Below are positions 872-33,357 of a stretch of DNA of 33,442 nt, in pieces; position 1 is the stretch's first letter; each line of letters opens with the position of its first letter. Origin of the DNA: Clostridiaceae bacterium (GTDB lineage Bacteria; Bacillota; Clostridia; Acetivibrionales; Acetivibrionaceae); assembly GCA_012519925.1 (NCBI GenBank), contig JAAYPF010000080.1:1-33442 (forward strand), read 5' to 3'. Both the position numbers and the translations under genes were made by a program. The notes below the pieces were generated by a model, which was not told the origin of the DNA, searched no databases, and worked only from the letters and a program-made list of their open reading frames with translations.

Positions 872-3337
872 ATGAAGCTTAAAGTGGTTATAGTCGGAGG
901 AGTAGCCGGTGGTGCTAGTGCTGCGGCACGTCTTAGAAGGCTAAATGAGGATGCGGAAATTATACTTTTTGAGAAAGGTGAATATATTTCCTTTGCCAAT
1001 TGTGGACTTCCTTATTATATAGGTGAGGTCATACAGGAAAAGGATAAACTTGTCGTTCAGACACCGGAAGCAATGAAGAAAAGGTTTAATATAGATGTTA
1101 GGGTAAATAGTGAGGTCACAAAGGTATTGCCTGACAAGAAAGTGGTCGAAGTTTTAAACATCAAAGAGGGTACCACTTATACAGAAACTTATGATAAACT
1201 AATCCTTTCACCTGGAGCAGAGCCGGTTAGACCCCCTCTTCCCGGAATTGATTCTGATAGAGTTTTTACCCTGAGGAATATACCAGATACCTACAAAATC
1301 AAGGATTATGTTGACACAATTAAGCCAAAGAGAGCAGTTGTAGTAGGAGCGGGATTTATTGGGCTTGAAGTTGCTGAAAATCTTCATGCAAGAGGTGTTA
1401 AAGTGACAGTGGTCGAATTGGCAGATCATGTTATCGGTCCTCTTGATTTAGATATGGCAGCTCTTGTACATCAACACATGAAATCAAAGGATGTTGAATT
1501 CTATCTTAAAGATGGTGTAAAATCCTTAAGCAATACAAAGTCATTTACAGTGGTAGAATTGACTAGTGGAAGGTCTCTTAAGGCAGATATGGTTATAATG
1601 GGAATAGGTGTAAAACCGGAAGCAAAACTTGCAGTTGATGCAGGTCTTAAAATAGGAAAAACCGGGGGCATTTTGGTAAATGAAAATATGCTTACATCAA
1701 ATCCTGATATATATGCTGTGGGAGATGTTGTTGAGGTAAAAGATTATATTAGCGGAAATCCTGCACTGATACCACTTGCAGGACCTGCAAACAAGCAGGG
1801 GAGGATAGCAGCTAATAATATTTGTGGAATAGTGGAAAAATACGAAGGAACTCAAGGAACTTCAATTGTTAAAGTATTTGATATTACAGTAGCTATAACG
1901 GGAAATAATGAAAAAATACTAAAAAGAAATAACATAGAATATGAAAAGTCCTTTACCCATTCTGGATCTCATGCAGGATATTATCCCGGTGCAATCCCGA
2001 TGGCAATAAAGCTTATATTTGACAAAAAGAATGGCAAAATATTAGGTGCTCAAATAATTGGGTATGAAGGTGTTGATAAGAGAATAGATGTTATAGCTAC
2101 AGCAATCCGTGCAGGTATGACGGTTTACGACCTTGAAAAATTGGAACTTGCTTATGCTCCACCCTATTCTTCGGCAAAGGACCCTGTAAATATTGCAGGA
2201 TATACAGCGGCAAATATACTTAAAGGTGATAGTGAAATATTCCATTGGCATGAAGTGGATTCTCTAGATCGCTCAAATTCTGTACTTCTTGATACAAGAA
2301 ATGAAATGGAGGTTAGTCTTGGAACTATAGAGGGTTCTATTAATATACCTTTAGATGATCTGCGAAACCGTTTGGATGAATTGCCTAAAGATAAAGAAAT
2401 TCTTGTCTTTTGTCAAGTAGGTCTAAGGGGTTATATTGCATATAGAATATTAAAGCAGAAAGGTTTTAAGGTGAGAAACTTAAGCGGCGGCTACAAGACT
2501 TATCAGCTTGCGGTTCAAAAACAATCAAATGAAGATATTTATGAATATGACAAGATAACAAAAAGTGATGAAATTAAATCAGTAGATTGTAATGACACTG
2601 AATGCAAAGCTGACGCCGATATAAAAGTCGACGCATGTGGATTGCAATGTCCTGGTCCTATAATGAAGGTAAGTAACAGTATTAAAGCTATGAATTACGG
2701 GGAAGTGCTTCACATAAAGGCTACTGACCCTGGATTTCAAGAAGATGTCAAGTCGTGGTGCGAAAGTACGGGAAATAAACTTTTAGGTATGAATTTTGAG
2801 AATTCCTCCTTTAGTGCCTATATTAGAAAAGAGAAGGGACAGGATAAAAAGGAAAATTCAATAAGGAAAAACGATAAGACAATGGTTGTATTCAGTAATG
2901 ATCTTGATAGAGCGATAGCGTCTTTTATCATTGCAAATGGAGCGGCTTCAATGGGAAGGAATGTCACTATGTTCTTTACCTTCTGGGGATTGAACATTTT
3001 GAGGAAGAATGATAAAGTAAACGTAAAAAAAGATTTGTTCGGTAAAATGTTCGGGCTAATGATGCCAAGAGGGTCTAAGAAACTTTCTCTTTCTAAGATG
3101 AATATCGGCGGCTTGGGGGCAAAGATGATAAGAAATGTAATGAAAAACAAAAATGTAGCATCGTTAGAAGAGCTTATCCAATCGGCCGTATCAAACGGAG
3201 TAAATCTTGTTGCCTGTAATATGTCCATGGATGTCATGGGAATAAAAAAAGAAGAACTCATTGATGGTGTAAAAATTGGGGGAGTTGCAACATTTCTTGG
3301 TTCAGCAGAGGACTCTGATATGAGCTTATTTATTTAG
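872..3337 (+). CDS. CoA-disulfide reductase-like flavoprotein fused to rhodanese, TusA and DsrE domains
   Basis: An 821-aa protein with four modules. Residues 1-450 are a pyridine nucleotide-disulfide oxidoreductase of the CoA-disulfide reductase/NADH oxidase class. They include FAD-binding VGGVAGGASAAARLRR (8-23), the redox cysteine C44 in SFANCGLPYYIG, NAD-binding VVVGAGFIGLE (156-166), and YAPPYSSAKDPVN (428-440) of the dimer domain. Residues ~455-550 are a rhodanese domain with active-site C514 in the loop CQVGLRG. Residues ~585-655 are TusA-like with CGLQCPGP (C589, C593). Residues ~669-821 are a DsrE-like domain with C782. Such fusions move persulfide sulfur between cysteines and reduce CoA-persulfide or polysulfide in the cytoplasm. 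The ATG at 872 is chosen because AAAGGAGG lies just upstream; an in-frame TTG at 839 has no good site. The ArsR regulator follows 21 nt downstream. The exact substrate (CoA disulfide, CoA persulfide or polysulfide) cannot be told from sequence. Confidence 0.9.
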   Translation: MKLKVVIVGGVAGGASAAARLRRLNEDAEIILFEKGEYISFANCGLPYYIGEVIQEKDKLVVQTPEAMKKRFNIDVRVNSEVTKVLPDKKVVEVLNIKEGTTYTETYDKLILSPGAEPVRPPLPGIDSDRVFTLRNIPDTYKIKDYVDTIKPKRAVVVGAGFIGLEVAENLHARGVKVTVVELADHVIGPLDLDMAALVHQHMKSKDVEFYLKDGVKSLSNTKSFTVVELTSGRSLKADMVIMGIGVKPEAKLAVDAGLKIGKTGGILVNENMLTSNPDIYAVGDVVEVKDYISGNPALIPLAGPANKQGRIAANNICGIVEKYEGTQGTSIVKVFDITVAITGNNEKILKRNNIEYEKSFTHSGSHAGYYPGAIPMAIKLIFDKKNGKILGAQIIGYEGVDKRIDVIATAIRAGMTVYDLEKLELAYAPPYSSAKDPVNIAGYTAANILKGDSEIFHWHEVDSLDRSNSVLLDTRNEMEVSLGTIEGSINIPLDDLRNRLDELPKDKEILVFCQVGLRGYIAYRILKQKGFKVRNLSGGYKTYQLAVQKQSNEDIYEYDKITKSDEIKSVDCNDTECKADADIKVDACGLQCPGPIMKVSNSIKAMNYGEVLHIKATDPGFQEDVKSWCESTGNKLLGMNFENSSFSAYIRKEKGQDKKENSIRKNDKTMVVFSNDLDRAIASFIIANGAASMGRNVTMFFTFWGLNILRKNDKVNVKKDLFGKMFGLMMPRGSKKLSLSKMNIGGLGAKMIRNVMKNKNVASLEELIQSAVSNGVNLVACNMSMDVMGIKKEELIDGVKIGGVATFLGSAEDSDMSLFI

Positions 3338-3358
3338 TGTACGAAGGGAAGTTTTAAG

Positions 3359-3634
3359 ATGAAAGATTTAAAGATTTATGAACAAAAGGCAGAAAAGTTA
3401 AAAGCGTTAGCACATCCTCAAAGACTTTGTATTGTAAAAGGACTTATGGACAATAAGTGTAATGTGACTACAATTCAGGAATGTTTGGGGCTCCCACAGT
3501 CTACTGTATCCCAGCATCTTGCCAAACTTAAAGCTGTAGGAATTATTGAAGGAAATAGAAATGGTTTGGAGATTTGTTATAGTGTTGTGGATGAGGAAAT
3601 AACTGAAATAGTTAAAATTTTATTTAAAGAATAA
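3359..3634 (+). CDS. ArsR/SmtB-family repressor, cysteine-rich, possibly sulfur-sensing
   Basis: A 91-aa winged-helix regulator, typical in size for ArsR. The family pattern is clear: LKALAHPQRLCIVKGL for the first helices, then the recognition helix in LPQSTVSQHLAKLKAVGII and a wing around GNRNGLEICYSV. It carries four cysteines (C24, C34, C42, C73). The classical ELCVCDL metal site is absent: the equivalent stretch reads TIQECLGL. Persulfide-sensing ArsR members (SqrR/BigR type) use a cysteine pair, so a thiol-based sensor that represses the upstream sulfur operon is a reasonable inference but unproven. AAGGGA lies upstream of the ATG. The gene sits 21 nt after the reductase fusion and is probably co-transcribed with it, giving autoregulation through the promoter at 789. 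Confidence 0.88.
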   Translation: MKDLKIYEQKAEKLKALAHPQRLCIVKGLMDNKCNVTTIQECLGLPQSTVSQHLAKLKAVGIIEGNRNGLEICYSVVDEEITEIVKILFKE

Positions 3635-3658
3635 AGCTTTTTCAAAAGATGTAAATGG

Positions 3659-3690
3659 AATCTATTGAAAGGGCAGTGGAATAGATTTTT
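3659..3690 (+). terminator. weak hairpin with T-run between arsR-type gene and deoC
   Basis: An 8-bp A/T-rich stem (AATCTATT at 3659-3666 with AATAGATT at 3680-3687) and a 13-nt loop end in five T residues. It could end or attenuate transcription after the regulator. No separate promoter is evident for deoC, so leak-through is likely. Confidence 0.4.
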
Positions 3691-3718
3691 AGAATAAACA
3701 AAAAGGGGAAGATAGGTA

Positions 3719-4408
3719 TTGGATAAAAATATAATAGCATCAATGATTGATCATGCGGTTTTAAAGCCTGATGCCGCTGACTTAGATGTTGAAAGAGAGT
3801 GTGCAATAGCTAGAAAATATAAAGTTGCATCCATATGTGTGAAGCCTAGCCATGTGGAGTATGCAGCAAAGCTGCTGAAGGATTCTACAGTTAAAGTCAG
3901 TACGGTTATAGGCTTTCCCCATGGAACTACAACGACAAGATGTAAGGTGGCAGAAGCACAGGAAGCCATTGAGAATGGTGCAAGTGAGTTAGATATGGTT
4001 CTAAACATTGGAAAGCTTCTATCGAGAGACTTTGATTATGTAGAAAAGGACATCAGAAGTGTAGTTGATGAAGCACATTGTAAAGGTGCTATTGTCAAAG
4101 TTATTTTGGAAACAGCTCTTTTGAATGATGAAATGAAGGTCGCTGCCTGTAAGATATCAGATAAATGCGGTGCTGATTATGTAAAGACATCCACAGGATT
4201 TAACGGGAGAGGTGCAGATTTAAAAGACATTACACTCATGAAAAGTAGTGTAAGTGATAAGGTTGGAATAAAAGCTTCCGGAGGAATAAAGAATTTTGAA
4301 CAAGCGGTGGCTTTTGCTAAAGCCGGATGTACTAGACTTGGAACAAGTTCTACTATTGATATAGTAGGAGAAGGTGTAGAATCTATTGATAAAGATTCAA
4401 ATTATTAA
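3719..4408 (+). CDS. deoC: deoxyribose-phosphate aldolase (DERA)
   Basis: A 229-aa class I aldolase that cleaves 2-deoxyribose-5-phosphate to glyceraldehyde-3-phosphate and acetaldehyde, in deoxynucleoside breakdown. The family motifs are in place: DHAVLKPDA near the N-terminus, VIGFPHGTTTT, ELDMVLNIG with D92, the Schiff-base lysine K156 in GADYVKTSTGF, and the assisting lysine K185 in IKASGGI. Length is normal for the short bacterial form. The start is a TTG at 3719, supported by AGGGGAAG about 10 nt upstream; no in-frame ATG fits. It follows the ArsR gene by 84 nt across a weak hairpin and ends before a strong terminator. No other nucleoside-catabolism gene (deoA, deoD, cdd) is nearby. Confidence 0.93.
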   Translation: MDKNIIASMIDHAVLKPDAADLDVERECAIARKYKVASICVKPSHVEYAAKLLKDSTVKVSTVIGFPHGTTTTRCKVAEAQEAIENGASELDMVLNIGKLLSRDFDYVEKDIRSVVDEAHCKGAIVKVILETALLNDEMKVAACKISDKCGADYVKTSTGFNGRGADLKDITLMKSSVSDKVGIKASGGIKNFEQAVAFAKAGCTRLGTSSTIDIVGEGVESIDKDSNY

Positions 4409-4450
4409 GGTATATTGTTATCTATATTTGTCAAAAAATAAGAGAAACGA

Positions 4451-4495
4451 AAATCAAGGGTGAAAATTGGCTAAATACATCCCTTGATTTTTTTA
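4451..4495 (+). terminator. Rho-independent terminator after deoC
   Basis: A perfect 10-bp inverted repeat (AAATCAAGGG at 4451-4460 with CCCTTGATTT at 4481-4490) and a 20-nt loop are followed directly by a T-run. It ends the sulfur/deoC transcript. Confidence 0.8.
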
Positions 4496-4614
4496 TGCTA
4501 TTCTTTTTAGAAAACAAGTTAGGGAAGTACGAATTTTTACTTTAAACTAGAATACTGCAAGTATAACTGGCATAAAAATATCCTATAAAGAATTTATTGT
4601 GAGGTGGCCGGTTA

Positions 4615-5451
4615 ATGCAAAGGCAGTTTTGTGTTATTATTACATGTATTCTTATGATATTGATGTTTACAGGTTGTTCTGCTTTGCCAAAGATAGGCAA
4701 CAATGATGAGATAAGCCCTGTCAGTAGCATAGCATTGAGTGAAGCAGAAGCTCAGCAAATTGCGAACAAGTCGCCGATTTCCCTGTACTTTGCAAATGAG
4801 GAAGGTACTAAACTAAAGCTTGAAGTACGCTATATACCAACGAGTGAACTTAAAAAACCTGCTAATGAAATTGCTTCACTAATTGTTAATGAATTAATAA
4901 ACGGACCTAGCACGGGTTCAGGATTAAAACCCACAATACCTGCTGAAGCAAAATTACGTTCGATAAAGATAAAGGATGATGTGGCTACTGTTGACTTTTC
5001 TAAGGAGTTTAAAGAAAAGCATCCCGGTGGAAAAGCTGCAGAGCAGATGACAATATACTCTATTGTAAATTCGCTTACCGAGCTTAAGGAAATCAGCCAA
5101 ATTAAGTTCAAGATTGAAGGCAAGACTTCAAAGGAATTCAAAGGAGCTTATAAGTTCGACAATCCTTTTCCAAGAAGTACTTCAATAATAAGTAGAGAAA
5201 CAAGCAATTTAACAAAAAACAATACCGATAATACAAACAGTAATGTTGACGAAGACAAAAAGGAAAAAACTGAAACAGAAAGCGACAAGAAAGATAATAA
5301 GAACTCTAAGGAAACAATAAATGATGAAAATGACGGAAATAATATTGAAGTGTTTGAAGAAGATATAGAAACTTTTGGAGATACTGAAGAGGAAGGTATA
5401 ACAACATTTTATATTGAAGATGAAATGATAGATGATGAATTATTGGAATAA
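4615..5451 (+). CDS. GerMN-domain lipoprotein (GerM-like, sporulation/germination)
   Basis: A 278-aa predicted lipoprotein. A short hydrophobic signal peptide ends in the lipobox FTGC with lipidated C21. Residues ~55-175 form one GerMN domain, recognisable from ISLYFANEEGTKLKLEVRYI, the NELINGPS segment, VATVDFSKEF and IYSIVNSLTEL. B. subtilis GerM has two such domains and is needed for sporulation and germination; this protein has one, like many clostridial members. The last ~90 residues are a low-complexity polar tail, first Asn/Thr/Lys-rich and then very acidic (EVFEEDIETFGDTEEE). It is probably disordered outside the membrane. GAGGTGG lies about 8 nt before the ATG. The gene stands alone, bounded by the deoC terminator and its own hairpin terminator. 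Confidence 0.85.
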   Translation: MQRQFCVIITCILMILMFTGCSALPKIGNNDEISPVSSIALSEAEAQQIANKSPISLYFANEEGTKLKLEVRYIPTSELKKPANEIASLIVNELINGPSTGSGLKPTIPAEAKLRSIKIKDDVATVDFSKEFKEKHPGGKAAEQMTIYSIVNSLTELKEISQIKFKIEGKTSKEFKGAYKFDNPFPRSTSIISRETSNLTKNNTDNTNSNVDEDKKEKTETESDKKDNKNSKETINDENDGNNIEVFEEDIETFGDTEEEGITTFYIEDEMIDDELLE

Positions 5452-5475
5452 TAATTATGATAAGAAATGAAATAC

Positions 5476-5527
5476 AAAAAATAACGAAACAAGAAGAGGA
5501 AAGTACTTCTTGTTTCGTTATTTTTTG
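5476..5527 (+). terminator. strong Rho-independent terminator after the GerM-like gene
   Basis: A perfect 16-bp stem (5481-5496 with 5506-5521) is extended by A/T pairing to 21 bp. It has a 9-nt loop and T-runs on the plus strand (5521-5526). The mirror A-run means it can also work on the minus strand. Confidence 0.88.
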
Positions 5528-5528
5528 T

Positions 5529-5596
5529 TATAGGAATTTGCAAAAACCTATTTTTGTAAATTCCTATACTGGGGATTGGAAAGGGGATTCCCCTTT
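5529..5596. repeat. two adjacent hairpins, the first sharing a motif with the 50-bp repeat at 12314
   Basis: Hairpin one has 18-nt arms (5529-5546 and 5551-5568), pairing with one G-T wobble around a 4-nt loop. Hairpin two is AAAGGGG (5580-5586) with CCCCTTT (5590-5596) around a 3-nt loop. The arm motif TATAGGAATTTGCA (5529-5542) recurs exactly at 12376-12389. The rest of 5597-5742 shows no credible gene. Confidence 0.55.
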
Positions 5597-5720
5597 GTTG
5601 CTAACGATATATATTTTTCGACAGCCAAAAAGTTGTATACTAACTAATACTTCTGTATTATCATATAAGATAAAATTTTATGCTGAAAAGTTAAATAAAA
5701 AAATTTTAAAAATATTGCAG

Positions 5721-5748
5721 TGGTTATCAATTTATTCTCGTCTATAAT
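5721..5748 (+). promoter_or_regulatory. probable promoter of the ECF sigma operon
   Basis: TATAAT at 5743-5748 has a poor -35 (TGGTTA, 5721-5726) 16 nt upstream. The overlapping CGTCTA (5739-5744) resembles the -10 of some ECF sigma promoters, so autoregulation is possible, but no AAC-type -35 element is evident. Confidence 0.4.
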
Positions 5749-5772
5749 AGTGAAGGGGAAAGGAGGGGAGCG

Positions 5773-6315
5773 ATGGAGCTAGATGAATTGCTTGTTAAGA
5801 AAGCCATAAAAGGCGATGACGATTCTTTTAGGAGAATAGTTGAAAAATATCAGGGTCTGGTATATGCTATTTGCTTTAATATAACGGGTCAAAGGCAGGA
5901 AGCTGAGAACTTAGCTCAGGAAACTTTTATACAAGTGTATCGCTCTCTATCCCGCTATAAGAATAAAGGTTTCAAATCCTGGATTGGAAAAATAGCAACA
6001 AATAAGGCGATCGACTGGAAAAGAAAAAGACGTCTAGAAAACGAAGGGAAAGTGGTCTATCTTGAAGATATCGAGGAGATAACTACAGAGAGCAACTTAA
6101 TTCATGATGAGTTGGTAAAAAAAGAAAATACCAAAAAGTTGTTGGAACTATGCAATAAACTACCGGAAATTTACAGCACGGTGCTAATAAAATTTTATAT
6201 CCAATCAAAGTCCTATAATGAAATATCAAAAGAGGATGGTATAAGTGTTAAAACCGTAGAATCAAGACTCTATAGAGCCAAGCATGCGATAAGAAGGCAA
6301 TGGAAGGAAGTGTGA
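5773..6315 (+). CDS. ECF-type RNA polymerase sigma factor
   Basis: A 180-aa sigma-70 factor with only regions 2 and 4. Region 2 spans ~20-90: YQGLVYAICFNITG, then AENLAQETFIQVYRSLSRY (DNA melting and -10 recognition), then WIGKIATNKAIDWKRKRR. Region 4 spans ~120-178, with LPEIYSTVLIKFYIQ and the helix-turn-helix SYNEISKEDGISVKTVESRLYRAKHAIR. AGGAGGGG just upstream supports the ATG at 5773. The anti-sigma gene begins at its stop codon, so the two form a classic sigma/anti-sigma pair. Its products downstream are membrane proteins, which suggests a role in envelope stress like the Bacillus SigW group. The regulon cannot be read from this window. Confidence 0.93.
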   Translation: MELDELLVKKAIKGDDDSFRRIVEKYQGLVYAICFNITGQRQEAENLAQETFIQVYRSLSRYKNKGFKSWIGKIATNKAIDWKRKRRLENEGKVVYLEDIEEITTESNLIHDELVKKENTKKLLELCNKLPEIYSTVLIKFYIQSKSYNEISKEDGISVKTVESRLYRAKHAIRRQWKEV

Positions 6316-6317
6316 GT

Positions 6318-6794
6318 ATGTGCCATTATAATGAAGAAGAATTGATCTTATACAGTGAAAACTGTGTCGATGAAGTTTTAGAGAAAGACATTGATAAGCA
6401 TCTGCTAATTTGTGAAGAGTGTAGAGATAGGTATATTCAGATTATCGAATGTTATCATATGAACGACGGTGAAAATCAGATTTCTTTGGAATTTACAAAT
6501 AACATAATGAGGAGCATTAAGAGTAATGCTGGTCGAAATAAAACTGTAAAGAAAAAGAAACTTGCACCGGAAGTTTTCTTCTATTACGTTGCCGCTGCTT
6601 GTATAACCCTATTGTTTTCTTTTAATGGAGTCCTTGATTCTTTGATTGGCGGATTTTCAGATATTACAACCTCAATTGCCAAAACACCGATAAATATTGA
6701 ACAGAGGGTATCAAACGGCTGGACTGAAAGACTTGCAAATGATACATCGATTATGATTTCAAAATTAAAGCCACAAATTACTGAAAAGGAGTGA
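6318..6794 (+). CDS. zinc-finger (HC2/ZAS) membrane anti-sigma factor
   Basis: A 158-aa protein with an N-terminal cytoplasmic zinc-binding anti-sigma domain. The HxxxCxxC motif is present as H28-LLI-C32-EE-C35, with further cysteines at 2 and 16. A single membrane helix lies at ~86-106, followed by ~50 extracytoplasmic residues. Such proteins hold their ECF sigma factor at the membrane until a signal, often regulated proteolysis, frees it. The ATG at 6318 is preferred because AAGGAAG lies about 9 nt upstream. A longer frame from the ATG at 6300 would overlap the sigma gene and lacks a site. The start is 2 nt after the sigma stop, indicating translational coupling. Confidence 0.88.
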   Translation: MCHYNEEELILYSENCVDEVLEKDIDKHLLICEECRDRYIQIIECYHMNDGENQISLEFTNNIMRSIKSNAGRNKTVKKKKLAPEVFFYYVAAACITLLFSFNGVLDSLIGGFSDITTSIAKTPINIEQRVSNGWTERLANDTSIMISKLKPQITEKE

Positions 6795-7611: not shown

Positions 7612-9011
7612 AGAGACAATGGAGAGTAGGCACATTATCAATGGGGTTGCTACTGGTGGCTCTTGGCATAATAATGTTGGTTTCACAGATATTAAATACC
7701 TCAGTAATTGAGCATATATTCAAGTGGTGGCCGGTTGTACTTATATTGATTGGAATAGAAATCCTGATCTATGTTTTTCTTTCAAAACAGGAAGAACCTA
7801 AAGTCAAATTTGATGTTTTCAGTATTATTATTATTTCAATTATAATGATAACAAGTGTTGGTTTTTATGCTGTAACAGGGCTTATATCATCGGGGAATGC
7901 TATTGTTTCAATAGATTCTATGTTTGACAATTATAGAAATGAGTCGAAATACACGATGAACTTTGAGGTTGATGCTACCGGTAGTAATTTAATAATTGAC
8001 AATTCTATGGGAGATGTTAGTGTTACGAAAGGCGAAGGGCAGAAGATAGAAGTTGAAGCAAATATAACAATAAAAAATAATGACGAGGAGTATGCTGCAA
8101 AAGTATCCGAATCCTTAGTTTCTATCAAAGAGGAAAAGGATATAAAAATTACCTCGAACTCTAAAAAGTATTCTAATAACGGTAAGATAGGAAGTATAAG
8201 AATTGATTATTCAGTGAAGGTTCCTGATACTGTGAAGGTTGAAGTGGACAACAAATTTGGAGATGTATCCCTCGTTGGACTTGCCCTATCGGGAAAGGTG
8301 CATAACGCAAATGGCAAGGTAACAATTGAAGCATTAGGTGGGGATCTAATTGTGGATAGTTTTTTTGGAGATGTTGATGTACGGGATATTAAGGGAGAAA
8401 CTGAGTTGTATTTAAAGAATGGTAATGTTGTTGCAAACAATTGCAGTAAAAATATCAAAATAGAAAACTCCTTTGGAGATATTGAGATAGATGGTATTGA
8501 AGGAATTGCTACAATAACAAGTACAAACGGTAAAACTAAGGGAAACGGTATAGATGGAAATGTAAGCGTTATAAGTAAGTTTGGAGATGTAATTCTATCT
8601 AATGTTTCAGGAAGCGTTGATGTGGATGGTGCAAATGGCAGTGTTGATATATCAACTGTCGGTAGGGATGTAAAGGTAAAGAATACATTTGGACAAACAA
8701 AAATATTAAATGTAAACAAAGGAATAACTTTAAATTCGAGCAATGGAGATATTACAGTTGAGACGGATAAAGTTATAACACAGGATGTAAATATAGAAAA
8801 CAAATTTGGCGATATCATCCTGAAGCTTCCTGCTGAACAGAACGGCTACTTTGATGCAAATACTAAATTCGGCAGTATAAGGAATGAATTTGGTCTTAAC
8901 GTCACGAAAGATATGAATAATGAATCAGTAAAAGGTACAGTAATGGACGATAAGATAAAGTTTAAGTTGAAAAGTGATAACGGTGGAATTGAGCTTGAGA
9001 AAATAAAGTAG
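7608..9011 (+). CDS. LiaF-like transmembrane region with DUF4097 beta-repeat (putative adhesin) domain
   Basis: A 467-aa protein starting at an ATGA overlap with the previous gene. Residues ~8-57 form the two-helix LiaI/LiaF-like membrane region (GLLLVALGIIMLV, then FKWWPVVLILIGIEIL). A third membrane helix lies at ~68-90. Residues ~125-465 are a repetitive DUF4097 domain. FGDV/FGDI turns recur about every 40 residues, alternating with NGxV/NGDI turns, as expected for a right-handed beta-solenoid. In Bacillus, DUF4097 protein YvlB is encoded in a SigW-controlled operon and LiaF tunes an envelope-stress sensor. I infer that this one senses or protects the envelope under the upstream ECF factor. 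A long terminator follows. Confidence 0.85.
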   Translation: MKRQWRVGTLSMGLLLVALGIIMLVSQILNTSVIEHIFKWWPVVLILIGIEILIYVFLSKQEEPKVKFDVFSIIIISIIMITSVGFYAVTGLISSGNAIVSIDSMFDNYRNESKYTMNFEVDATGSNLIIDNSMGDVSVTKGEGQKIEVEANITIKNNDEEYAAKVSESLVSIKEEKDIKITSNSKKYSNNGKIGSIRIDYSVKVPDTVKVEVDNKFGDVSLVGLALSGKVHNANGKVTIEALGGDLIVDSFFGDVDVRDIKGETELYLKNGNVVANNCSKNIKIENSFGDIEIDGIEGIATITSTNGKTKGNGIDGNVSVISKFGDVILSNVSGSVDVDGANGSVDISTVGRDVKVKNTFGQTKILNVNKGITLNSSNGDITVETDKVITQDVNIENKFGDIILKLPAEQNGYFDANTKFGSIRNEFGLNVTKDMNNESVKGTVMDDKIKFKLKSDNGGIELEKIK

Positions 9012-22882: not shown

Positions 22883-22922
22883 GCCGTAAACTCTTACATA
22901 ATTGAGTTTACGGCGTTTTGTT
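22883..22922 (+). terminator. bidirectional terminator after nifJ
   Basis: GCCGTAAACTC (22883-22893) pairs perfectly with GAGTTTACGGC (22904-22914) around a 10-nt loop, followed by GTTTTGTTG. On the minus strand it is followed by ATTTTTAC, so it can also end the P-II-like operon. Confidence 0.85.
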
Positions 22923-23019: not shown

Positions 23020-23361
23020 TTATTTTTTATCACCGGGGTCTTCGACAAGGTTTTGACTTATACCGACTACTTTTGATACTGGCAAAGTGAAACAAATACC
23101 ATTAGCCTCAGATTTGAATGCTCCATTTTTCTTTACAGCCTCCATAATCTTGTCAGCGGTTTCATCGTCTGTAAGAGTCAGTATTATTTCCTTTTCTCTA
23201 TCAACACTAATTCCCATAATACCTTTGTGTAAAGAATTAATACCGCGGGCATTAATTATAGTAGCACCAGTAGAACCCAGTGAACGAATATTTTCGACTA
23301 CTTGCTCAGAAAAACCTGCACTTACAATAATATACAGGGCTTTCATATTACCATTAATCAT
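23020..23361 (-). CDS. P-II-like protein, second copy of the DUF1538 operon
   Basis: A 113-aa protein with the ferredoxin-like pattern of P-II regulators: strand KALYIIVSAGF, helix SEQVVENIRSLGS, strand GATIINARG, a short loop, strand EKEIILTLTDDETADKIMEAV, then a C-terminal GICFTLPVSKVVG strand. It lacks the conserved T-loop tyrosine context and the ATP-binding B-loop of canonical GlnB/GlnK, so it is a divergent P-II-like protein. The ATG at 23361 is chosen because GGGAGGA lies 5-6 nt upstream; an ATG at 23379 would overlap the previous gene. It begins 14 nt after the other P-II-like gene. Its role is presumably to sense a ligand and control the DUF1538 protein; that is inference. Confidence 0.78.
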   Translation of the reverse strand: MINGNMKALYIIVSAGFSEQVVENIRSLGSTGATIINARGINSLHKGIMGISVDREKEIILTLTDDETADKIMEAVKKNGAFKSEANGICFTLPVSKVVGISQNLVEDPGDKK

Positions 23362-23375
23362 ATCTTCCTCCCAAA

Positions 23376-23690
23376 TCATACTGACAACTTTTCAACAGGA
23401 ACAACAAAAGCAATCCCTGTATTGGGTTTGTCGAAATTGAATTTTAAAACTAATTCTTCAAGCAGTTTGCTAGACAAATCACTAGCGATTAAGCAAGTAA
23501 TAATAATCTTTTTTTCCTCAGGTACAAGTCCGAGCAGATCTCTAAAATACCCAGATTGAACTGAACCTTTGGCATAAACTACATCAATAAGATGACATCT
23601 AGAGTCCAATAGTAGTTTTAAGATTCCTTCTTTATTACTTCTATCAGCTACTAAGGTAAAGAAATCAACACAAGATTTATGATCTATCAA
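23376..23690 (-). CDS. P-II-like protein, first copy of the DUF1538 operon
   Basis: A 104-aa divergent P-II-like protein. It has the strand-helix-strand start FFTLVADRSNKEGILKLLLDSRCHLIDVV across two elements, a loop rich in Tyr/Phe (SGYFRDLLGL), the strand KKIIITCLIASDL with its helix, and an end TGIAFVVPVEKLSV that parallels GICFTLPVSKVVG of its neighbour. The two copies share fold but little sequence, so they are probably functionally distinct or form a heteromer. The start is a TTG at 23690, with AAAGGAGGG 12 nt upstream and no in-frame ATG. It lies 31 nt after the DUF1538 gene. Canonical uridylylation and ATP sites are not seen. Confidence 0.72.
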   Translation of the reverse strand: MIDHKSCVDFFTLVADRSNKEGILKLLLDSRCHLIDVVYAKGSVQSGYFRDLLGLVPEEKKIIITCLIASDLSSKLLEELVLKFNFDKPNTGIAFVVPVEKLSV

Positions 23691-23721
23691 GGTTTTTATT
23701 ACCCTCCTTTAAATATTCTGT

Positions 23722-25386
23722 TCACAAGATGCCGTCGTCTATTTGAATGTCTTTCGTAGCATCAACAATGGCTTTGTCTTGAACATGCTCACCCAATTGT
23801 TCAAGAGTAGAAGCAAGTTTGGCTAGTTCTTTTCGCTCATTAAGCTCAGCATCTTCTATCGCTTTGTTTGCTTTTTTAATATTAATATTATACACTATAC
23901 CTAAAAATTGAACAGCAATCAATGGGGTTACAGAAATAAATGCAATAATTCCGAAACCATTTACTAAAATTGATTGCCCACCAGAACTAGATGTGGTAGC
24001 CACGGCTTGTGCTACTCCAAGAGTGAGGGGAGTCAGGAAAGCAGAGGTTAAGGCACCTCCTGAAACACCACCCGAATCAAATGCCAGTCCCACAAATAGC
24101 TTCGGTGAAAATGCCATCATGGAAAGTGCAACAATATATAGAGGGACTAAAAACCATAATATATGAACCTCTGTCAAAATCTTTATCATAGCAAGTAAAG
24201 AGGCGAAACCAATACCTATGGCAAGTGTCATGCGAATTGTTGTCTTCTTAATATGACCGTTAGTTATTTCCTCTAACTGTTCGCCAAGCACTGTAACAGC
24301 AGGCTCTGATAAGGTGATAGCCGCACCTAAAATAAATCCAACAACCAGAAGTAGCCACTTAAACCATTCAGGGCGAGTAACATCTAAAAATATTTCACCA
24401 ATATATTTACCTGCAAAAGCAAATCCATAATCAATACCTGAGAGAAAAATTAATAGACCTATAAATACTACGATAGTCCCTAATAAAATAGTTACAAACT
24501 CCTTTTTAGGTTGTTTGATTAGGAAAAATTGAAAGGGCAAAAACACTAATATAACCGGTAAAAGGGCCAAAATTACTCCCCATAGATTGCCGATAATAAT
24601 CTCGCCTAATGTCCCAGTAGTACCAGGAGAATACAGCTGTTCGGGAGGGAATACGCCACCGTAACGAGCATTAAGTATTATTCCATATATAGATAATGAA
24701 AGAATGGGACCTACCGAAGCAAGACCGATAATTCCAAAACTGTCATCATTACTTTTGTGTTTGGACATACTAACGGAAACACCTAGACCAAGAGCTAGAA
24801 TGAATGGTACTGAAATGTCTCCTGTTGTTGCTCCACTGCCGTCAAAAGCTAAAGCAATAAATTTATCAGGAACAAATATAAGCGTTATGAAAGTAATGAC
24901 ATAAAGGACTAAAAATACTACTTTAATATTTAAGTCCTTCATTATTCTATAGAGTGAAAAGGCAACCATAGCACCGATTCCAAAACCCATAATCCAGATA
25001 AATACAGTTTGATTAATGATGGGCATAATCATATTTGTCTGTTTTGCTAAAACAGTTAATGCAGGCTCAGCAACCGTAGCAAGCAGACCAAAAACAAGTC
25101 CGAAAAAGATAATAAAGGTTACCTTTTTAAGCTTTACTAAAGAACCACCAACTAGCTTTCCTATAGGGAGGATGCTAATATTTAATCCGTCCAAAAACAA
25201 TGTTTGACCAAGAACTACACTAGTATAACCAACAATTAGTTTAATATAGTCAGACATGTTTTCTAAAGGTGCTATAAAACAACAGACAATAATCATAATT
25301 GCTGCAAGAGGTAGTGATGATATAAAAACTTCCTTTAACGTGGAAGCAAAAATTGTAAACTTACTTTTCAGGTTGATTTTATTCAT
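23722..25386 (-). CDS. DUF1538 family membrane protein with internal duplication, putative transporter
   Basis: A 554-aa polytopic membrane protein (about a dozen hydrophobic segments) built of two homologous halves. LLATVAEPALTVLAKQ in half one matches AITLSEPAVTVLGEQ in half two, and FIALAFDGSGATTGDISVPF matches FVGLAFDSGGVSGGALTSAF. Repeated Gly-rich re-entrant-type motifs with acidic residues inside membrane halves are typical of secondary transporters and channels. DUF1538 itself has no known substrate. The last ~60 residues are a charged helical cytoplasmic tail (IEDAELNERKELAKLASTL). The start is ambiguous: ATG at 25386 is given, with a TTG at 25398 as alternative, and both have poor sites. 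It is the first gene of an operon with two P-II-like genes downstream. Confidence 0.82.
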   Translation of the reverse strand: MNKINLKSKFTIFASTLKEVFISSLPLAAIMIIVCCFIAPLENMSDYIKLIVGYTSVVLGQTLFLDGLNISILPIGKLVGGSLVKLKKVTFIIFFGLVFGLLATVAEPALTVLAKQTNMIMPIINQTVFIWIMGFGIGAMVAFSLYRIMKDLNIKVVFLVLYVITFITLIFVPDKFIALAFDGSGATTGDISVPFILALGLGVSVSMSKHKSNDDSFGIIGLASVGPILSLSIYGIILNARYGGVFPPEQLYSPGTTGTLGEIIIGNLWGVILALLPVILVFLPFQFFLIKQPKKEFVTILLGTIVVFIGLLIFLSGIDYGFAFAGKYIGEIFLDVTRPEWFKWLLLVVGFILGAAITLSEPAVTVLGEQLEEITNGHIKKTTIRMTLAIGIGFASLLAMIKILTEVHILWFLVPLYIVALSMMAFSPKLFVGLAFDSGGVSGGALTSAFLTPLTLGVAQAVATTSSSGGQSILVNGFGIIAFISVTPLIAVQFLGIVYNINIKKANKAIEDAELNERKELAKLASTLEQLGEHVQDKAIVDATKDIQIDDGIL

Positions 25387-29258: not shown

Positions 29259-29393
29259 ATGGCAGTAAATCTTTATCAAAAAAACGGTGTATTCAGCTGC
29301 AAGCTCTTTGCGGTTTTGTTTCGGTTTTTATATATTTTTATGTTTGTTTTTATGGATATGCATGGTATAATTGATCGGAAAATCAAAAAGTGA
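29259..29393 (+). CDS. possible 44-aa small membrane protein or leader peptide
   Basis: ATG at 29259 opens a 44-codon frame: MAVNLYQKNGVFSCKLFAV then a hydrophobic stretch LFRFLYIFMFVFMDM and a basic end DRKIKK. It has one membrane-spanning segment. AAGGTG lies 8 nt upstream, a modest ribosome binding site. The frame ends 25 nt before the start of the large dockerin gene and overlaps the -10 at 29366. It may be a leader peptide or chance in AT-rich DNA. Confidence 0.3.
   Translation: MAVNLYQKNGVFSCKLFAVLFRFLYIFMFVFMDMHGIIDRKIKK
29363..29371 (+). promoter_or_regulatory. extended -10 promoter of the dockerin-cohesin gene
   Basis: TGGTATAAT is an extended -10 with a weak TTGTTT 16 nt before the TATAAT. 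Transcription would start near 29378, giving a leader of about 40 nt. Confidence 0.5.
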
Positions 29394-29418
29394 AAAAATT
29401 CCAGAAGGAGTAACAAGA

Positions 29419-32400
29419 ATGTACAAGAAGAAAAATGTAACTAAGTTGGTAATTTTGTGGGTATTTATAGCCCAAATCTTATTTACGAATGTATTTAGTT
29501 TATCAGTGTTAGCTACAGAATCAGTTTCTTATCCGGTATTTGAGACTGTACCCACAACAACATCAGCCATTGAATCAAAGCTTATTGGTGATGTTAATGA
29601 TGATGGAGAAATAGACAGTATAGATTTTGCACTCATGAGAATGGTTCTGCTTGGATTAAAAAGTAGCTTTCCAGTTGTCAATGGTGAATGGGCTTCCGAT
29701 GTAGACGGAAATGGGCTGTTCAACAGTATAGATTTTGCTTATATGCGAAAGTTTTTGTTAGGTTATATAAGTGTATTCCCTGCAGTGTCAAAACCAACAC
29801 CAACTACTACCCCGACTGTTGTTTCAGAGGTCAGCATTTCTTTAGAAAACCAACCTACAAGAAAAGGGGATATAATTACCGCTTCAATAAATATCGGTGA
29901 AATATCAAATCTTGCGGGTTATGGACTAAACATTAAATACAATTCCGATGTGCTAAAACCTGTGGACAGCACAACTAAAAATCCTTATGAAGAAGATACG
30001 ATTCCAAAAATTGGAGATGTTCTTGCAGACACGAATTATGAATATGTAACTATGGCTCGTCATGACCTGAATGAAGGAATTCTTAGCTTTGGAAGAACAG
30101 TTAAAGACCTTGATGAATATAGAAATAAGGGCAATGCAGTTGTAAAGGGAGTACTTGCTGAAATATCTTTTGAAGTGTTGGAAGTTGCAGACGTCAAAAT
30201 AGAAGTTGCAGATGATATAGACAACAAATACTGGAGGGCTGGTGCATATATAAACAAAAAAGGTGTTCAATTTTTTGATTTAAATGGAGACAGCATTGAT
30301 GTAAAAAGTACAGCTTCAGTAAACAATGTCGATTCCTCAACGGTTGACAATAATGACTTGAACTCGGGATCAACAGAAATTAAAGATTTACAGGAACACA
30401 CGGTCGAAGGATATATTGGAACTTTAGAAGCTCAAGACTTCAATATTGAAATATTCAATGATGAAAAAAATATTATAGGCAGTAGCAACACAGATGAAAA
30501 GGGATACTTCCAAATAAAATATACTCCAGATTCATATGAGCTTGTTACTTTAAAAATAAGCAAAGAAGGATATTTAAGCCGATTTGTTAATATTCCAGTG
30601 GGAATGAAGGGTGTTCAGCTAGGTACTAAAGACAGTCCCCTTGATATGTGGATTGGTGAAACAAACGGTGATTGTATAATAGATATTAATGATATTATGT
30701 ATATGGTAAGGAACTCAGATGAAGAAAAGATTCAAAAAACATTAAGCAATTACAATAGAGTTCCTGACGACTATTGTTTAGAGATAATTCTTACATGCGA
30801 TAGTGACAGTATTAACGGTGATATTAATATCCTAAAAAACACTGTATTTGATGTCAACAAGAAAAAATTATTTGCAAGTAACTTGGAAAATGCAGGGAGC
30901 ATATATCTAAGGGGTGGAGAAATACATTTAAGTGGAGATTATGAACAAGGAATAAATGTATTATCTATACAAGCATCCTTAATTGACATGCAGAACGGAA
31001 AAATGGAAGTAAACGGTAATGTTAAAATGGATGCGGGCACAATGTATATAAATGGTGGAGACCTCCATGTAAAAGGAGAATATCATTTAAAAAACAATGC
31101 GGTTCTAAAAATGACACAAAACAATGATTATGTGATTATAGAAGGAAATACATTTATATACACCAAGACCAATTATGACAATTGTCTTACAGCAGGAATA
31201 CTCGAACTTAAGGGCGATTTCACCATAAACTCAACGCCTAACAATAATGTATTCGAAGCATACGGTACTCACAAAACAGTTCTTTCAGGAAAAAAAGGTC
31301 AGACAATTAATATGGAAAATGGTCATAGACCGCATACATTTAACACTTTGATTTTATTAGAGTCTGAGGAACATTATAACTTTATTCCTCCTAATAAAGA
31401 ATTCTGGAAAGAAATGCTCGACCATATCCCGGTTATGCCTACAGAACCTGAGGCACCAAATTTAACAGGTGTTTGGCATAATAATACTGCAAGGCTCTAT
31501 TGGTCAAAAACAGATTACGCAGATAGATATAATGTATACAGAAGCAGTATGGACGGAGGACCATATTACAATATAGCTGAAAACCACTTGAGAAAAGATT
31601 TCATTGATGTTGATGTGAAAGAAGGAAATAAATATTATTATGTTGTTGAAGCAGTAAATCGGTATGGAGTAAGTAATTATTCAAATCAGATTATGTTAAA
31701 TAGTGAAGTGGTTTATGATATAGAAACGATCGATATGGATGCAGACTATTCAGGGGACGGACTTACTAACGGGGAAGCATTGGAACATGGAACCAATATA
31801 TTCAAATGGGATACTGATGAGGATGGCATATCAGATTATGATGAAATATATGTATATGGAACAGATCCTTTAAGTCCTGATACAAGTGGCGATGGAATTT
31901 ATGATGGAGCAGCGTTGATGCTTGGATTAGAACCATTAGAAAGTCATGAAGGAGTTGAAACTTGTAAAACTGCATTATCGTCAGATGGCAGAGTTGAAGT
32001 AACTGCATGGGGGGATGGAAATGTAATAATGTCACCGTTGCAGGTATGGGATTCTGACAATATGATTCTAGCCAATTTAGAGGGCATTGTTGGAAAGCCT
32101 GTAGAAATAACCAACGGAGGATTCCCAATTAAATATGCTGAAATTAGAATTTCATACAATAGGGAAGATTTAGGGGATATATCCGAGGATGAACTGACCA
32201 TATTCCATGCGAATGCTGAAACTCAAATGTTAGAAGAAATAGATGATGTACGGGTGGATAAAGACAATCAGGTGGTAATCGGTACAACAACGCACTTCAG
32301 CCCTTTCTTTATAGGTTCAATGCAGCTGAATAAGGTATTGGCTTCGGAGATTGTATTTGCATTGGATCGATCTGGGAGTATGGCAAACAATGACAAAAAC

Positions 32401-33357
32401 AATATTAGTGTTGCTTCAACAATAAGGTTTGTTGAACAATCCATTGGATATAATCTGGCAGGAACACAGAAAATAGGTCTTGTTGGATTTGATTATGATG
32501 GTTATGAATTATATAAAATTGAAGATTCCTCTAAAAAAGGCGAGTTGTTAGGAATTTTAAAGGGTATGGGTAAACCAAGTGGTGGTTCTACCAATATAAC
32601 CGATGGAATCAGAGATGCTGCTGACTTGTTTACTGCGAATAGCCTCGGACAAAAAATAATTGTGCTTCTGACTGACGGTGAAGCAACTAGAGAAAACAAT
32701 ATGGTTTATATAAACGGAGAAAAAGTTCGACAAGAACTTGCTTTAGCAAGAGAGTTAGCAAAAAAGGGTGTCAAAATTCATACAATAGCATTAGGAAATA
32801 AAACAGAAAGAGATCTTTTAAAGGCCATTGCTGATGAAACAGGAGGAGTATTTTACTTTGTAGACAACCAAACGGGGTTTACTCAAGATGATGTAAACAT
32901 GCAAATAAGTAATATATTTACGAAGCTATCAAACACCCTTACAATACCCAATGGAAAAAACCATAATGCCACGCCTGATCCATGGAACTTGAGATTTGCC
33001 CATGAGGACTTTTGGTCAAGTAAAGTTGAGATTAGACATGAGCTTAGCACCAGTTTAAAAGATCAAGCCGGCGATAAAATTATAGTAGATGTAAAAAATG
33101 ATTATGATATGAAAGAATTTGATCCCACGATAGCCGATGAGAATGATTATAAGCTAGAGGTCAATGAATTGGAAACGCTAGGATCTATAAATCAATTTTT
33201 CCTCGATTTAAAAGAGCTCAAAAGAGGCTTTTTCAGATATGATTGGTTAGATTTAAAGAACTATAATCTAGATGATAGTATGAAGAATCTGTTTGCCATA
33301 ACCAGTGATAGTAATAGACTCAACTTTCGCACATTAAAAATGTGCTGTGAACCTTGA
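29419..33357 (+). CDS. multidomain cellulosomal protein: dockerin, cohesin, FN3, calcium repeats, vWA
   Basis: A 1312-aa secreted protein. The signal peptide covers ~1-33 (KLVILWVFIAQILFTNVFSL). A type I dockerin at ~55-115 has two calcium loops, DVNDDGEIDSIDF and DVDGNGLFNSIDF, each followed by a LLG helix; both recognition pairs are Ser-Ile. A cohesin domain at ~136-295 has VSISLENQPTRKGD and LAGYGLNIKYNSDVLKP. A regulatory-like beta domain then leads to a half dockerin loop (NGDCIIDINDIM, ~417-428). A beta-helix-like region (~440-640), an FN3 domain (~678-765) and TSP3-type calcium repeats (DTDEDGISDYDE) follow. The vWA domain (~977-1165) has the MIDAS DRSGSM. Start: ATG at 29419 with GAAGGAG 8 nt upstream. 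Substrate and partner are unknown, and the C-terminus may be truncated. Confidence 0.85.
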   Translation: MYKKKNVTKLVILWVFIAQILFTNVFSLSVLATESVSYPVFETVPTTTSAIESKLIGDVNDDGEIDSIDFALMRMVLLGLKSSFPVVNGEWASDVDGNGLFNSIDFAYMRKFLLGYISVFPAVSKPTPTTTPTVVSEVSISLENQPTRKGDIITASINIGEISNLAGYGLNIKYNSDVLKPVDSTTKNPYEEDTIPKIGDVLADTNYEYVTMARHDLNEGILSFGRTVKDLDEYRNKGNAVVKGVLAEISFEVLEVADVKIEVADDIDNKYWRAGAYINKKGVQFFDLNGDSIDVKSTASVNNVDSSTVDNNDLNSGSTEIKDLQEHTVEGYIGTLEAQDFNIEIFNDEKNIIGSSNTDEKGYFQIKYTPDSYELVTLKISKEGYLSRFVNIPVGMKGVQLGTKDSPLDMWIGETNGDCIIDINDIMYMVRNSDEEKIQKTLSNYNRVPDDYCLEIILTCDSDSINGDINILKNTVFDVNKKKLFASNLENAGSIYLRGGEIHLSGDYEQGINVLSIQASLIDMQNGKMEVNGNVKMDAGTMYINGGDLHVKGEYHLKNNAVLKMTQNNDYVIIEGNTFIYTKTNYDNCLTAGILELKGDFTINSTPNNNVFEAYGTHKTVLSGKKGQTINMENGHRPHTFNTLILLESEEHYNFIPPNKEFWKEMLDHIPVMPTEPEAPNLTGVWHNNTARLYWSKTDYADRYNVYRSSMDGGPYYNIAENHLRKDFIDVDVKEGNKYYYVVEAVNRYGVSNYSNQIMLNSEVVYDIETIDMDADYSGDGLTNGEALEHGTNIFKWDTDEDGISDYDEIYVYGTDPLSPDTSGDGIYDGAALMLGLEPLESHEGVETCKTALSSDGRVEVTAWGDGNVIMSPLQVWDSDNMILANLEGIVGKPVEITNGGFPIKYAEIRISYNREDLGDISEDELTIFHANAETQMLEEIDDVRVDKDNQVVIGTTTHFSPFFIGSMQLNKVLASEIVFALDRSGSMANNDKNNISVASTIRFVEQSIGYNLAGTQKIGLVGFDYDGYELYKIEDSSKKGELLGILKGMGKPSGGSTNITDGIRDAADLFTANSLGQKIIVLLTDGEATRENNMVYINGEKVRQELALARELAKKGVKIHTIALGNKTERDLLKAIADETGGVFYFVDNQTGFTQDDVNMQISNIFTKLSNTLTIPNGKNHNATPDPWNLRFAHEDFWSSKVEIRHELSTSLKDQAGDKIIVDVKNDYDMKEFDPTIADENDYKLEVNELETLGSINQFFLDLKELKRGFFRYDWLDLKNYNLDDSMKNLFAITSDSNRLNFRTLKMCCEP
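33329..33345. repeat. small hairpin at the 3' end of the dockerin-cohesin gene
   Basis: GCACATT (33329-33335) pairs with AATGTGC (33339-33345) around a 3-nt loop, inside the last codons. It may mark an element boundary or be chance. Confidence 0.35.

Follow-up and report, generated by a model that had tools for sequence, protein, structure and literature searches.

Two P-II-like genes follow a fused DUF1538 gene

Textbooks present P-II proteins as sensors of nitrogen and carbon. What, then, do two P-II-like proteins do in one operon with a membrane protein of the DUF1538 family? The question is raised by a locus in a 33,442-nt stretch of DNA from a Clostridiaceae bacterium (contig JAAYPF010000080.1), the whole of which is called the window here. 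The three open reading frames lie on the minus strand, and their coordinates and gaps of 31 and 14 nt agree with those of the original prediction, which had been made from the sequence alone. The first gene (23722-25386) encodes a 554-amino acid DUF1538 membrane protein in which PF07556 occurs twice (E 4.8e-118), as expected of the duplication described earlier. This protein is a natural fusion of a UmpA-like half (residues ~1-245) and a UmpB-like half (residues ~262-505), followed by a cytosolic C-terminal tail. The gene for P-II-like protein A (P-IIa, the diverged partner; 23376-23690, 104 amino acids, TTG start) begins 31 nt behind it and has a AAAGGAGGG box upstream, which was read by eye. 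The reading frame of P-II-like protein B (P-IIb; 23020-23361) opens at 23379, and a GGGAGG box, also read by eye, lies ~6 nt ahead of an ATG (23361). Because this box precedes that ATG, P-IIb was taken to be 113 amino acids long and the gap between the P-II genes to be 14 nt.

A likely two-way terminator (22883-22914, on neither strand in particular), formed by a perfect 11-bp inverted repeat (gccgtaaactc/gagtttacggc) with a loop of 10 and T-rich tails, separates the trio from the pyruvate:ferredoxin oxidoreductase gene. No riboswitch or other Rfam element was found upstream of DUF1538 in 39 sources. On a clostridial contig (L013, positions 7819-7987), Rfam gave a match to the Vibrio antisense RNA V_AS7 that was just above the gathering score. 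Elsewhere in the window, positions 29371-33357 encode a protein of 1328 amino acids that combines dockerin and von Willebrand A domains, types that cellulosome-forming clostridia also have.

P-II genes adjoin DUF1538 genes in three phylum samples

The trio is not a one-off, which the original prediction had named as the finding that would speak against it. Among the fetched loci, a P-II gene was located directly downstream in 126/130 complete DUF1538 gene groups, with a median gap of about -12 nt, against a background of ~1-9 P-II genes per genome; the linkage is far beyond chance. In one further group (L131) the P-II gene is directly upstream, and the groups that carry none are L087, L129 and L038, the last with a broken DUF1538 frame. 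These few loci mean that P-II is not strictly needed. Our first picks leaned to high-scoring matches, and hence UmpB-like, third-phylum and divergent samples were added, some genomes of which overlap the first set. An adjacent P-II was present at 20/20 of the loci most like UmpB and at 13/13 DUF1538 loci of the third-phylum sample, and the most divergent DUF1538 loci with downstream sequence also carry P-II, save one degenerate copy (L264). RefSeq annotation of plasmids contains the same DUF1538/P-II pairs. DUF1538 itself is present in 139/398 genomes from the window's phylum, in 116/299 of a second phylum reached via a betaproteobacterial record, and in 13/151 of a third reached via a record named Leptolinea, the phylum names beyond these centre records being our own deduction.

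At one locus the two partners are joined in a single protein. Positions 448-3112 of L238 hold one 741-amino acid open reading frame with two DUF1538 domains and a C-terminal P-II domain, which is 47% identical to the product of the separate P-II gene that follows; this is one case, and its P-II part is not called by Pfam alone. The loci L020 and L036 were rejected as fusions since DUF1538 and P-II are out of frame with each other there, leaving L238 as the only in-frame one. The L238 fusion bears on an alternative in which the P-IIs form a NifI1/NifI2-like hetero-oligomer on another target, or are mere ligand sensors, and the operon reflects co-expression only. NifI1 and NifI2 are likewise two adjacent, unequal P-II paralogues; both are needed, and they act together on one target, nitrogenase, which they block directly (PMC9765008). 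However, the linkage was seen in all three phylum samples and in many architectures; together with the natural fusion, this points to the antiporter itself and makes the alternative quite unlikely.

DUF1538 is found once more in the window's genome, at L039, where a tandem P-II, one protein of 241 amino acids, is encoded directly behind it. A neighbour of this locus (L039, positions 474-2279) is OAD_beta, the beta subunit of a Na+-pumping decarboxylase and also a Na+-linked membrane protein. At L131 (positions 1796-5987), two DUF1538 systems, one fused and one split, follow each other, separated by two P-II genes.

The DUF1538 protein resembles the UmpAB antiporter and probably has antiparallel halves

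The substrate of the transporter had been called unknown in the original prediction, a statement that the literature on the family corrects. When UmpA and UmpB of Halomonas zhaodongensis, a DUF1538 pair, are produced in E. coli in the absence of P-II, they form a heterodimer, and experiments in E. coli KNabc and in vesicles showed that they function as a Na+(Li+,K+)/H+ antiporter (PMC5484666). The window protein belongs to the same Pfam family and shares with UmpAB the UmpA-then-UmpB order (the NCBIfam models match residues 35-237 and 264-493, respectively), the 7+7 helices, and halves that are predicted here to be antiparallel. Unlike UmpAB, it is fused, and its sequence is distant: the scores are 183.5 bits for UmpA (equivalog cut-off 490) and 145 bits for UmpB (cut-off 500). 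It may therefore transport another substrate. P-II is not mentioned in the published UmpAB work, and the closest sampled relatives of UmpAB carry P-II. Moreover, a machine-learning model of growth pH lists DUF1538 among pH-adaptation genes (PMC13255231).

The K+R pattern of the loops of the window protein gave an inverted 7+7 topology, with half 2 opposite to half 1. In split pairs, the K+R bias was zero or above for UmpA in 42/42 and zero or below for UmpB in 42/42; because these biases are opposed, UmpA and UmpB probably sit antiparallel in the membrane. As a check for dual topology, the bias was determined in four single-domain DUF1538 proteins and ranged from 0 to 6. At least 96% of 255 DUF1538 domains carry an acidic '-EP-' motif, some of the others having DP or ES, and E361, D437, D215 and R147 are invariant across 61 fused DUF1538 proteins. 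Acidic residues are kept in both halves at predicted helix breaks, namely E107/E361 in '-EP-' and D182/D437 in 'AFDxxG'. The AlphaFold2 model of the window protein (pLDDT 90.6) had no Foldseek match at E < 0.001 among solved folds, which is not proof of a new fold, and its best structural match (VIA Z 6.1) covered fragments only. As the model lacks a solved-fold match, structure gives no argument for cation transport.

The original prediction had suggested that each P-II serves one half of the transporter, which would put P-IIa on the UmpA-like half and P-IIb on the UmpB-like half. The window does have two halves with two P-IIs, and 4 loci combine one DUF1538 with one P-II. With partial loci set aside, the other architectures were fused DUF1538 with tandem P-II (37 loci), with two P-II genes (27 loci) or with one P-II (4 complete loci), and two DUF1538 genes with one P-II (29 loci), with tandem P-II (11 loci) or with two P-II genes (8 loci). 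The number of P-IIs thus does not track the number of transporter halves. The 29 loci with two DUF1538 genes and the 4 with a fused double DUF1538, all with one P-II, contradict such an assignment, and the halves are inverted in the membrane, so they offer no equivalent, homologous cytosolic faces. We therefore consider one regulator per half very improbable.

The P-II-like proteins belong to two old lineages that lost classic ligand residues

P-IIb matched PF00543 with an E-value of 1.3e-10 (41.9 bits, cut-off 25), whereas P-IIa stayed below the cut-off (E 0.011, 16.5 bits). A profile of DUF1538-linked P-IIs, the training set of which includes P-IIa itself, found P-IIa with an E-value of 6e-28, and phmmer with P-IIa as query recovered relatives behind other DUF1538 genes. 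The fold was assessed on the tandem P-II of L039, the paralogue from the same genome and not the window's own pair. Its AlphaFold2 model (pLDDT 81) has the beta-alpha-beta-beta-alpha-beta ferredoxin-like fold, and both domains match P-II structures with Z ~9-10, up to ~9.8, so the P-II fold that had been foreseen was found in this paralogue. SbtB is among the matches, which do not separate SbtB from other P-IIs. The alignments for structure prediction were built without plasmid-derived rows.

In a phylogenetic tree, the P-IIs in first and second position behind DUF1538 form separate old lineages, with 2 label changes for lineage A versus 66 when labels were shuffled. P-IIa of the window is on a fast-evolving branch of lineage A and P-IIb is in lineage B, which agrees with the earlier description of the two regulators as non-equivalent. 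The loss of the canonical T-loop tyrosine and of the ATP B-loop, also noted earlier, extends to the sampled relatives: the Y51 position is a gap in all DUF1538-linked P-IIs sampled (A, B and single) and in nearly all antiporter-linked ones, and Q39, K90, R101 and R103 are replaced in the antiporter-linked P-IIs sampled. With these residues lost, classic sensing of 2-oxoglutarate and ATP is unlikely; as judged from the alignment, the antiporter-linked P-IIs probably do not sense these ligands in the classic way. B-type P-IIs largely keep T29, K58, G89 and F92. The loop region between positions 37 and 58 has ~15 residues in DUF1538-linked P-IIs versus 20 in GlnB. Positions 37-40 read G-[I/A/V]-H-E in the single P-IIs of the window's phylum and similarly in much of lineage B; the motif is gone from the greater part of lineage A.

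A proposed P-II-throttled cation/proton antiporter

We propose that the products of the operon are a cation/proton antiporter from the UmpAB family and dedicated P-II-like regulators that bind and throttle it, a reading that we consider likely. The part of the original prediction that saw a P-II-regulated transporter is strengthened by the gene linkage, the fusion and the P-II fold of the paralogue, while its blank substrate and its one-per-half assignment fell away. There are precedents for such control. SbtB and GlnK bind and throttle their transporters, and SbtB plugs the bicarbonate transporter SbtA with its T-loop (PMC8352866). The DUF1538 system resembles SbtA-SbtB in that a P-II-like protein is paired with a secondary transporter; unlike there, the transporter is of another family and the T-loop is ~5 residues shorter than in GlnB. 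In GlnK-AmtB, too, the P-II gene adjoins that of its transporter, but AmtB is unrelated to DUF1538, and the canonical ligand residues and Y51 are missing from the DUF1538-linked P-IIs.

In the proposed mechanism, the two DUF1538 halves would be inverted repeats that together make one antiporter, which would exchange a monovalent cation for protons and in which E107/E361 and D182/D437 probably bind ions. The P-IIs probably form trimers or A/B hetero-oligomers and would dock on the cytosolic side of the antiporter via their short T-loop. The B-type P-II would be the conserved regulator and A a diverged partner, and the A/B pair may act as a hetero-oligomer in the way that NifI1 and NifI2 are both needed for their target. 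The degree to which the P-II throttles transport would be set by a bound ligand, most likely an adenine nucleotide and not 2-oxoglutarate at the classic site; this guess is based on membership of the P-II family and on the fact that T29 and K58 are kept. UmpAB transports in the absence of P-II, so the P-II would be a modulator, and we lean towards an inhibitor of the antiporter.

Related P-II-like genes lie beside PF00999 antiporters

Other P-II-like genes of the surveyed genomes, found with weak scores, adjoin PF00999 (Na+/H+ exchanger) genes in 6/7 cases. A profile of those seven P-II-like genes gave more matches in 54/249 genomes, and a PF00999-type neighbour was present at 34/34 fetched loci, confirmed by Pfam for those scanned. 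Overall, 40/41 loci of this sister clade have a gene for a CPA-type Na+/H+ antiporter (PF00999) next to the P-II-like gene. The window's genome has such a pair as well (L152, positions 4409-5951), in which the antiporter gene directly follows the P-II-like gene. PF00999 spans nearly the whole antiporter (~390-405 amino acids), so that a fused regulatory domain would hardly fit. In the tree, the PF00999-linked P-IIs form one clade (support 100/98). A 99/92 branch separates these and the DUF1538-linked P-IIs from GlnB/GlnK and the NifI-like pairs (neighbouring P-II genes with high scores that were assumed to be NifI-like); this placement is tentative, given the small number of columns, the long branches and the midpoint rooting. 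The two P-II groups are alike in sequence family, gene pairing and loss of the classic residues. They differ in the number of residues between positions 37 and 58, with a mean of 26 in PF00999-linked versus 15 in DUF1538-linked P-IIs, and in the antiporter family that they adjoin. We tentatively suggest that two unrelated antiporter families have related P-II-like partners, and this sister family likewise speaks to the substrate that had been left blank.

These neighbours also help to weigh whether DUF1538 moves ammonium, by NH4+/H+ or NH4+/K+ exchange, with the P-IIs signalling nitrogen status in the way known from GlnK and AmtB. The DUF1538-linked proteins belong to the P-II family, and K+, an analogue of ammonium, is accepted by UmpAB (PMC5484666); the substrates named in the abstract of that study do not include ammonium. 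But the sister P-IIs adjoin Na+/H+ antiporters, the sampled DUF1538-linked P-IIs have no Q39, Y51, K90 or R101, and the window's genome has another P-II gene, a canonical one, immediately after an amtB-like gene (L040). Ammonium exchange thus appears unlikely, and we retain throttling of a cation/proton antiporter as the preferred reading.

A broader reading, for which the case is about evenly balanced, is that a branch of the P-II family left nitrogen control and became dedicated regulators of DUF1538/UmpAB and PF00999 antiporters, which would sense a nucleotide, an adenine nucleotide or possibly c-di-AMP, and thereby set the pH, Na+ or K+ of the cell. The pairing suggests that P-II-type switches also control sodium/potassium-proton exchange. 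If so, an overlooked regulatory layer would exist in the pH and salt homeostasis of many anaerobes and Pseudomonadota, DUF1538, known from one experimental study, would gain a mechanism, and many proteins that carry no annotation beyond 'P-II family nitrogen regulator' would be re-read. The system is compact and amenable to the antiporter-deficient E. coli used for UmpAB. Antiport by UmpAB was known; our search, which left most subscription journals outside its reach, found no earlier paper linking DUF1538/UmpAB or cation antiporters with P-II.

Two further arrangements were observed among the surveyed loci. At L160 (positions 2612-6400), two consecutive pairs of P-II and PF00999 antiporter genes lie in tandem. 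At L138 (positions 4644-6100), a DUF3240/P-II-like protein adjoins a HupE/UreJ-type membrane protein, possibly another pairing of a P-II with a transporter.
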